Notes under the pieces: model-generated
The model's input: the letters and a program-made list of their open reading frames with translations, nothing else
What the model was told of the DNA's origin: nothing
The model's database searches: none
DNA from: Pyrinomonadaceae bacterium
GTDB lineage: Bacteria > Acidobacteriota > Blastocatellia > Pyrinomonadales > Pyrinomonadaceae
NCBI GenBank assembly: GCA_021228405.1
Contig: JAJQRF010000004.1
Coordinates: 1-64,000, forward strand
Length of the DNA stretch: 64,000 nucleotides
Direction of reading: 5' to 3'
Program-made: the position numbers and the translations under genes
Shown: piece by piece, positions 46,286 to 48,552 of the stretch
Layout of the letters: the number at the start of each line of letters is the position of its first letter
Numbering within the stretch: the first letter of the stretch is position 1

Positions 46286-46311
46286 AGAGCGTGTTTGATC
46301 AGACACGCTCT
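46286..46311. terminator. Hairpin behind the 224-aa gene
   Basis: The stem agagcgtgt/acacgctct has a T run on the minus-strand side only. It lies 35 bp past the stop and may end transcription or insulate the restriction locus. Confidence 0.45.
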
Positions 46312-46441: not shown

Positions 46442-46744
46442 GTGTCAGAATTAATAAATACATCACAAAATCAATTTCAATTCAGGATTTTGAAAGGTCA
46501 AAATTCGTTTGATGGTTTCAAAAGTCAAAAACCTTTTTTAAAGTGGGCTGGCGGCAAATCGCAACTTATTTCATCATTATTTCCGCTTGTTCCGATCAAT
46601 TTTTCAAAATATATCGAGCCTTTCATCGGCGGCGGCGCATTATTTTTTGCGATTAATCATCATCGTTCAATTATTTCAGACTCAAATGAGGAATTAATAA
46701 TTACATATAAAATGGTGCGAGATAATGTAAGTAATCTAAATTGA
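46442..46744 (+). pseudogene. 5' fragment of a D12-class (Dam/DpnM-like) adenine methylase
   Basis: The 100 codons from GTG 46442 match the start of GATC-type N6-adenine methylases: FLKWAGGKSQLI (motif X), YIEPFIGGGALFFAI (motif I, SAM binding) and SDSNEELIITYK. The frame then ends, about 170 residues early, so the catalytic DPPY motif and target recognition part are absent. It cannot methylate. An active Dam-type enzyme would be lethal next to DpnI, so loss of the rest fits the neighbour. No rest of the gene is seen within the window. Confidence 0.85.
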
Positions 46745-46755
46745 TTCAACTTAGT

Positions 46756-47529
46756 ATGAACTTAAAATTCAACGTCCAACTTGCTTCAAATTATACAAAT
46801 AACTCACAAATCGCTCGAATATTGACTGAAAATTGGGTTAAGGAAAATTCTTATTGTCCGAATTGCGGTGAAATTAAAATTCATAATTATCCAAATAATC
46901 AGCCCGTTGCTGATTTTTTTTGTGCAGTTTGCAAAGAAGATTTTGAATTAAAAAGTAAGACAGGTAAATTAGGTAAAAAAATCGTTGACGGAGCTTATTC
47001 CACAATGATTCAAAGAATCACGTTAGACGGAAATCCAAATTTCTTTTTTTTGACATATTCAAAAAACGATTTGAAAGTTAATAATTTTCTGATAATTCCG
47101 AAACACTTTTTTCAACCTGAAATTATCGAAGAAAGAAAACCTTTATCACCAACCGCACGCCGAGCCGGTTGGATTGGATGTAACATTGATTTAGAAAAAA
47201 TTCCGAATCTTGGAAGGATTTTTTTAGTAAAAAACTCCGTCATCACAAATAAAAATGATGTTTTAGAAAATTGGCACAAGACTATTTCTTTACGCAAAAA
47301 ATCTATTGACGCAAAAGGATGGACACTTGATGTCTTAAAGTGTTTAGATCAAATTAAAACAGCCGATTTCACACTTGATGATGTTTACAAATTTGAGCAG
47401 GTTTTAAGATTAAAATATCCTGAAAATAATTTCATTAAAGACAAAATCCGTCAGCAACTTCAAGTTTTGCGCGATATGAATATAATCGAATTTACAACAA
47501 GAGGTAAATATCGGAAATTATTAAAATGA
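46756..47529 (+). CDS. DpnI-type restriction endonuclease (cuts G-methylA-TC)
   Basis: This homologue of DpnI is about 257 residues long. I start at ATG 46756 because MNLKFNVQLASNYT aligns with the DpnI start. Zinc-binding Cys pairs (YCPNCG and CAVC) and the PD-(D/E)XK site VADFFCAVCKEDFELKSKTG are conserved, as are NPNFFFLTYSKN and ARRAGWIGCNIDL. A C-terminal winged helix (about 185-257) reads methylated GATC. The enzyme attacks phage or foreign DNA made in Dam-positive hosts. It is overlapped by dpnD by 4 bp. Confidence 0.95.
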   Translation: MNLKFNVQLASNYTNNSQIARILTENWVKENSYCPNCGEIKIHNYPNNQPVADFFCAVCKEDFELKSKTGKLGKKIVDGAYSTMIQRITLDGNPNFFFLTYSKNDLKVNNFLIIPKHFFQPEIIEERKPLSPTARRAGWIGCNIDLEKIPNLGRIFLVKNSVITNKNDVLENWHKTISLRKKSIDAKGWTLDVLKCLDQIKTADFTLDDVYKFEQVLRLKYPENNFIKDKIRQQLQVLRDMNIIEFTTRGKYRKLLK

Positions 47530-47828
47530 AAACATTTGAAATTCAAATTACTGAAAAACTGGTTAAGTCTGTTAAAGTAACGGCAGATTCGTTGGAAGAT
47601 GCTGTGATTACAGTTAAATCAAAGTATAAAAATGACGAAATCACACTTGATTACTCTAATTTCCAAGATGTTACCTTTGAGTCAGTAGACTTTGAATCGA
47701 AATTTAAAAGTCTTGTTAATGAATTGATCGAATTCGTCTTTAAAGCTGAAAAAAATAACTTAACTTCCAATAATTCCAATCAAATTTTACTCAAACTTGA
47801 AATACTAAGAGAGTTGAATTCTCACTAA
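47526..47828 (+). CDS. DpnD-like protein
   Basis: This 100-residue protein begins MKTFEIQITEKLVKSVKVTA with a YKNDEITLDYSNF stretch, the DpnD/PcfM pattern. It overlaps the DpnI gene by 4 bp (ATGA), the same pairing as dpnC-dpnD in Streptococcus. The role of DpnD is not established. The stop lies directly before the nuclease fragment. Confidence 0.85.
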   Translation: MKTFEIQITEKLVKSVKVTADSLEDAVITVKSKYKNDEITLDYSNFQDVTFESVDFESKFKSLVNELIEFVFKAEKNNLTSNNSNQILLKLEILRELNSH

Positions 47829-48552
47829 TTTTGAATTAAACGAAGAAAAAGGTGTAACGAGAGATGAAATAATTAAGTTCATTTTACAAGTTTCTGAAAT
47901 AACTGCTGATTCAATGGCTCCGAGAAGATTGAGTTCGGTTGTTGCTTGGCTTGAAAAACTCGAAATCATTGTTAAATCCAACAACAAATACTTTTTATCG
48001 CTTGAAAGAGTCAATCAAGACGTTAAAATTTTAGAATTTACAGATATTAGTGAGCCGATTTTACCAAGATCAAATGATTTGCGTGAATATGAAACCGTTA
48101 ATATGAGAATGGTAAAAGCGCGTGAAGATATAATTATCTATCAAAATTCGGCGGCAGTTGATAGGGCAGATAATGCACATCGAAAACTCGTCAACTTAGT
48201 TGCTAACCGAATAAAAAGCGCGGGTTCAATTCCCAGATTCAATAAACTTATTGATTTAGCAACGAAAAATAAAGATGACGATTACATTTTTGAAATGAAG
48301 TCATTGACTGAGGCAAATGCCAAAACCCAAATCAGATCAGGTTTGAGTCAACTTTACGAATACAGATATTTGCAGAACTTACCAGATGCTAAATTGGTTT
48401 TGGTAATCGAAAAATCTCTTCCCGATAAAAATAATTGGATGATTGAATATTTGGAAAAAGATCGGGATGTATTTTTGCTTTGGGACGGCAATGACAATCT
48501 TTTCGGAACTAATCATGCAAAAGAGAATTTGAAATTTCTTAATATTGCTTAA
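47818..48552 (+). pseudogene. 5'-truncated PD-(D/E)XK nuclease gene
   Basis: The frame is open from 47818, after an in-frame stop at 47815, with no ATG/GTG/TTG until 47914. From there, conserved-looking residues are lost: upstream codons encode a winged-helix-like segment (GVTRDEIIKFILQVSEIT). The middle has KLVNLVANRI and DDDYIFEMKS (Asp113...Glu117-x-Lys119 from ATG 47914), a nuclease core with SQLYEYRYL behind it. I read it as the 3' part of a restriction-type enzyme whose 5' part was replaced. An intact 212-aa protein from 47914 is the alternative. Confidence 0.65.

Follow-up and report, generated by a model that had tools for sequence, protein, structure and literature searches.

A DpnI–DpnD gene pair between two fragments of a putative two-methylase restriction–modification operon in a Pyrinomonadaceae bacterium

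Genes and fragments at the dpnI locus

The locus described here lies in the window (the whole stretch of 64,000 nucleotides that was analysed), taken from a genome assembled in 20 contigs. It comprises a dpnI–dpnD pair flanked by the beginning of a methylase gene (M1) and by the end of a nuclease gene (R), with narrow junctions on both sides:

46442–46744, plus strand: M1 stub, a 100-codon 5′ piece of a Dam/DpnM-family D12 adenine methylase gene, running from the start through motif I and slightly beyond
46735–46755, plus strand: left junction, where methylase homology yields to dpnI just 5′ of its ATG
46756–47529, plus strand: dpnI (dpnC) homologue, 257 amino acids, a GmATC-dependent endonuclease by family
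47526–47828, plus strand: dpnD, 100 amino acids (PF14207, 5.7e-12), with a 4-bp overlap with the end of dpnI
47826–47840, plus strand: right junction, with the onset of nuclease homology no more than ~10 bp from the dpnD stop
47829–48552, plus strand: R 3′ fragment, residues ~104–344 of 344, covering most of the second winged helix and the entire PD-(D/E)XK domain

Both domains of the DpnI homologue are present at full length (PF06044, 1e-83, positions 1–182 of 183; PF17726, 9.6e-33, positions 1–70 of 70), and the protein aligns along its whole length with the solved DpnI 4esj (E = 1.6e-96) and matches the PADLOC profile mREase_II at 2e-115. Specifically, the alignment shows that it retains residues matching D53, E64 and K66 together with the four zinc cysteines of 4esj, which are the catalytic and zinc-binding residues in the numbering of the DpnI structure. 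By analogy with characterized members of the family, it would cut incoming GmATC DNA, with the host's own GATC sites staying unmethylated.

The M1 stub matches TIGR00571 (82 bits, positions 2–70) and PF02086 (MethyltransfD12, positions 1–68 of 253) in profile searches and is 56% identical to residues 5–100 of its full-length relative at locus L011 and 67% identical to that at L012. Comparison of the DNA at the junction indicates that its frame is lost through an apparent 1-base frameshift near 46735–46741, with methylase homology reaching ~46750. Its stop lies 11 bp before the DpnI ATG (46756), a spacing that makes translational coupling possible. On the other side of the gene pair, the R fragment lies in a frame that opens immediately after 47815, ends at 48552 and contains its first start codon at ATG 47914. 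This fragment is 62% identical to a 344-residue nuclease across residues ~100–342, and in the alignment to intact R it keeps the catalytic D, E and K columns as well as all otherwise invariant columns. A preliminary description made from the sequence alone had recognized a 100-codon methylase fragment stopping 11 bp short of the DpnI ATG, a DpnI–DpnD pair and a nuclease frame that opens in mid-protein, all of which these matches bear out.

Just upstream of the methylase stub, at 46286–46311, there is a 9-pair hairpin with a minus-strand T run and a GATC within the loop; it is likely a terminator for leftward transcription. A promoter scan at the locus returned no more matches than did shuffled sequences.

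GC content is uniformly low along the segment (stub, 32.0%; DpnI, 30.5%; DpnD, 28.7%; R fragment, 33.1%), against 52–55% in the neighbouring host genes. The segment therefore probably arrived as a single unit, perhaps later than the exchange that produced it, and that exchange may predate arrival in the window lineage.

The M1-M2-R operon and its breakpoints

A scan of one genome per bacterial or archaeal species with the window R fragment yielded 14 loci (L011–L024); the scan being seeded from the window's own fragment, the family is unevenly sampled. The operon is complete in 11 of these loci, L014 and L021 keep M2-R and reach the contig end within M1, and L018 is broken. Complete operons often start with a small HTH regulator (C), followed on the same strand and in tight packing by M1 (~290 amino acids), M2 (~350 amino acids) and R (~345 amino acids), and intact C-M1-M2-R or M1-M2-R arrangements occur in Bacteroidota, Acidobacteriota, Chloroflexota, Planctomycetota and other phyla. 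M1 is a Dam-family D12 methylase whose closest counterparts in the PDB are DpnM of the DpnII system (1.8e-56) and Dam, and the NGLYRVN signature, common with DpnM, is found in all intact M1 proteins. M2 also belongs to the D12 methylases but is diverged; M1 and M2 each correspond to one half of a fused type II methylase profile (PADLOC MTase_II PDLC03261). R carries Pfam DUF7226 at its N-terminal side and a PD-(D/E)XK nuclease at its C-terminal side; its predicted model (mean pLDDT 84) consists of winged helices at residues 1–79 and 85–159, a loose linker and a nuclease domain with D245, E258 and K260. The best PDB fold matches of this model are to the type IIS nickase N.BspD6I (E = 2e-5, but a TM-score of only ~0.3), and full-length R found no relative among PDB sequences.

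Judged by its sequence, M1-M2-R is a type II restriction–modification operon, and no characterized member was identified. It likely recognizes a GATC-containing site, because M1 resembles DpnM and Dam and because AlwI-type nuclease genes lie beside M1-type genes at L017 and L065; the specificity of AlwI is GGATC. The two methylases, together with the tentatively BspD6I-like fold, suggest an asymmetric target. The genomes hosting the family were also searched for DpnI, which was found in 0 of the 14. As to the surroundings of intact operons, an AlwI-type nuclease gene lies directly 3′ of M1-M2-R at L017:4689–7490, and DndB-like (PF14072) proteins are encoded 3′ of it in two phyla (L020:6354–7736 and L012:6284–7435).

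The two fragments in the window are the two ends of one such operon, in the same order and on the same strand. Compared with the closest intact operon, L011, M1 is retained up to residue ~102 (of 294) and R only from residue ~104 (of 344), which leaves the window without M2, the larger part of M1 and R's first domain. In L011 coordinates, 1,936 bp (the rest of M1, all of M2 and the start of R) are replaced by 1,073 bp, which correspond almost exactly to the interval from the dpnI ATG to the dpnD stop. The adjacency of these fragments to dpnI–dpnD is not due to chance, because D12 methylases (six matches in the 5.7-Mb window genome) and the R nuclease family (four of 60 relatives) are rare and yet the order and strand of the operon are kept. 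The preliminary description had postulated an ancestral operon with a methylase first, a PD-(D/E)XK nuclease last and a middle that was replaced; intact relatives have this layout with both genes at full length, and none of the intact operons checked starts its nuclease at the window's 47914. Our results thus strongly suggest that the locus is a (regulator)-M1-M2-R operon, the middle of which was replaced by dpnI–dpnD.

A comparable break is found in Candidatus Scalindua (L018), where M1-M2-R is also interrupted mid-operon, by a different insert (L018:3406–5708) that contains weak HARE-HTH-like and type II nuclease-like frames. M2 is gone, the frameshifted M1 runs to FNGLYRVNKK with its stop overlapping the start of the inserted gene (ATGA), and R resumes from about residue 95, approximately the same breakpoint as in the window.

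In a tree of R proteins, the window fragment groups with those of L011 and L012 (97/97) on a branch of ordinary length; no otherwise invariant column is broken and no decay was seen, and the piece must therefore either have been broken off recently or remain under constraint. The R fragment may retain leftover function. A stronger version of this idea is that the locus is a functional chimera, with a leader or regulatory role for the M1 stub and with the R fragment (212 amino acids from ATG 47914) serving as a small nuclease subunit alongside DpnI. Such a role would account for the full set of catalytic and otherwise invariant residues and for the normal branch length, and L018 keeps a part of R with nearly the same limits and with its first ATG at a nearly equivalent place; in addition, R resembles, at a TM-score of ~0.3, N.BspD6I, the family of which uses separate catalytic subunits. 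However, the retained fold comes without a start codon, a product begun at the first ATG would lack part of the second winged helix, no other DpnI locus has this combination of pieces and the breakpoints vary freely. We therefore regard a chimera of this kind as improbable.

Operon debris at DpnI loci in several phyla

We searched for DpnI in 396 genomes of the window's phylum, 396 genomes of Bacteroidota (the phylum of Leeuwenhoekiella) and 301 genomes of Chloroflexota (the phylum of an Anaerolineales genome). Flanks were read at 21 of the loci found, which together with the window and one Neisseria record make 23. Pieces of dam, DpnII-type or M1-M2-R operons lie beside DpnI in 8 of the 23:

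Window: M1 stub and R fragment beside DpnI
L040: dam stub of ~45 matched codons, its stop overlapping the DpnI ATG; DpnA 3′ piece after the insert
L063: dam without its C-terminal end, DpnI directly after it, then DpnD, a RhuM gene and a DpnA-type methylase
L065: M1-type dam without its C-terminal end, followed by DpnI and an AlwI-type nuclease
L109: dam truncated at about residue 231
L048: gonococcal drg, followed by pieces of dam and DpnA
L062: DpnA without its start
L041: 3′ piece of R, in opposite orientation

A further locus, L110, has a distant M2-like match 1.3 kb away, which is not included among the scars. A restricted count, with queries taken only from intact operons and E. coli Dam and with the window and the L110 match left out, gives 6 of 22 DpnI loci versus 0 of 30 loci of Mrr, the sole control family (Fisher p ~0.004). 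In the DpnI tree, the window and L040 are sisters (94/92), yet the methylase operons in which they reside differ, as do their companions, and this topology requires a minimum of four scar-state changes. The differing breakpoints and the placement of sister DpnIs in different operons therefore point to repeated independent events. At the five loci where a dam piece lies upstream (window, L040, L063, L065 and L109), DpnI follows on the same strand, at a distance ranging from a short overlap to less than ~100 bp.

These data also bear on whether dpnI–dpnD merely landed in a defence island, between unrelated pieces of dam and nuclease pseudogenes. DpnI, methylases and nucleases do cluster in defence regions, and the R fragment at L041 is on the opposite strand, as would be expected in random islands. 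However, the pieces in the window represent the two ends of a single rare operon, collinear and on the same strand, each junction falls within ~10 bp of the dpnI start or the dpnD stop, and the Mrr control loci are devoid of such pieces, which makes a coincidence very unlikely. Least credible is an assembly or binning artefact joining unrelated DNA, as the drop to 28–33% GC from 52–55% in neighbouring host genes might suggest, but the stub, DpnI, DpnD and the R fragment share a uniform composition, the segment has host genes on either side and the closest DpnI (L040) has the same anatomy in another genome.

No notable direct repeats bracketing dpnI–dpnD were found in the window, and no conserved sequence was detected 5′ of the DpnI start across 22 loci; these results lend no support to a site-specific mobile element. 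Viral spread was likewise rejected, since scans of viral contigs with DpnI and the R fragment gave no match and R was absent from phage records. A plasmid search with DpnI matched two Neisseria records only, which at 2.17 Mb are probably chromosomes filed as plasmids.

Another recurrent neighbour was noted at four DpnI loci (L040:6109–6786, L060:1218–1898, L061:7439–8119 and L062:5540–6211), where a 67-residue protein occupies the position of dpnD and is followed by a convergent PF05869-type methylase. Copies of this methylase from Acidobacteriota and Bacteroidota are 79–81% identical; it is an unusual companion for a methyl-dependent nuclease and may protect the host or mark a target other than GmATC.

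Precedents and a possible route for the replacement

Family searches detected no other Dam/DpnM-type D12 methylase in the window genome, as a host of DpnI would require, the best remaining 'dam' match being the partner methylase of an adjoining EcoRV nuclease (PF09233, 5.6e-108). The EcoRV site, GATATC, is no DpnI target. Because the genome also contains 15 N6_N4_Mtase matches with unassigned targets, the GATC methylation state of the host stays a prediction. Among the DpnI-bearing genomes checked, the only Dam proteins with an NGLYRVN- or NGLFRVN-type signature are the truncated ones next to DpnI, and other Dam-family proteins in these genomes are without it. Clean mutual exclusion between DpnI and any Dam-family gene does not hold: TIGR00571 also catches EcoRV-type and other D12 methylases, and only the Dam/DpnM-type subset fits.

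The kind of event is known, Neisseria drg being a published precedent. At the leuS/dam locus, drg ('dam-replacing gene', NmeBII/Drg) interrupts dam, the two genes exclude each other and the drg region is AT-richer than the host (PMC4269198, PMC516771). Pfam names the DpnI family 'Dam-replacing', and in the gonococcal copy that we examined, the region after drg contains a 3′ part of dam, a DpnA-like fragment and a nuclease fragment. As in Neisseria, the window DpnI homologue lies within a truncated dam-family gene on the same strand. Unlike the Neisseria dam/DpnII-like locus, the window involves an operon that has two methylases and an unrelated nuclease and that is preserved at its two ends, and dpnD is present.

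In pneumococcus, DpnI and DpnII are alternative cassettes at one locus (PMC12707154), and the complementary GATC systems of S. pneumoniae, with DpnI, DpnII and DpnIII cassettes, share that single position (PMC3573125, PMC12707154). The window agrees with S. pneumoniae in its dpnC–dpnD order and in the match of the proteins. Pneumococcal cassettes swap whole between shared flanks; in the window, by contrast, remnants of the operon that was displaced are still there, and its nuclease differs from DpnII. A search for DpnA-type and DpnII matches among M1, M2 and R found none, so the displaced operon is not a dpnM-dpnA-dpnB set. The replacement proposed in the preliminary description, which drew the comparison with the DpnI/DpnII exchange of Streptococcus, is largely borne out; the ancestral operon, with its pair of methylases and a nuclease that does not resemble DpnII, is nevertheless not DpnII-like. 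The novel elements are which operon was displaced, the fact that it survives at its two ends, and the evidence for recurrence across phyla.

If dpnI–dpnD did replace the middle of M1-M2-R, one event or a short series of events would have removed the end of M1, all of M2 and the first DNA-binding domain of R, a loss that would abolish modification and cognate cutting alike. DpnI would probably be read from the old methylase promoter, perhaps with coupling to translation of the M1 stub, as suggested because it starts soon after the upstream dam piece, on the same strand, in the five loci mentioned above. DpnI would kill a GATC-methylating cell, so that breakage of the methylase would be a condition for retaining it; in a full restriction–modification operon, the nuclease would have to fail in the same step, or else the unprotected genome would be cut. 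Arrivals that break the methylase would survive, with selection acting by survival rather than through a site-specific element. Scar sites may thus recur because GATC-methylating cells tolerate DpnI only once the methylase is lost. Old methyl marks would presumably persist for some generations, and DpnD is a candidate for helping the cell to survive this passage. The anatomy, the intact relatives, the recurrence of debris beside DpnI and the lack of another recognizable Dam/DpnM-type gene are observed; in this scheme we infer that the genes are expressed and active, that the lost system was specific for GATC and in which order the events took place.

In one tight operon at L065 (L065:4422–7747), DpnI is accompanied by an M1-type methylase with a clipped C terminus and by an AlwI-type nuclease that is apparently complete. 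If the methylase is broken, AlwI should be harmful; if it is active, DpnI should be. A logic of self-protection does not fully account for this arrangement.

More broadly, DpnI in many phyla might take hold by breaking a resident GATC-methylating operon, with the same event destroying the methylase (and the nuclease, in a full restriction–modification operon) and leaving debris at about one third of DpnI loci; the window would then be the double-scar case, in a type of operon not previously linked to DpnI. We give this general model an even chance. Switching from methylating GATC and cutting the bare site to cutting the methylated site should be suicidal halfway, and the junctions in the window show what appears to be a successful switch, in which the two methylases were lost along with the nuclease's recognition half and DpnI–DpnD fills the gap from start to stop. 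Should the pattern hold across phyla, it would explain why the DpnI family keeps appearing at dam loci and, if true, would provide several natural breakpoints for studying how cells survive such a change.
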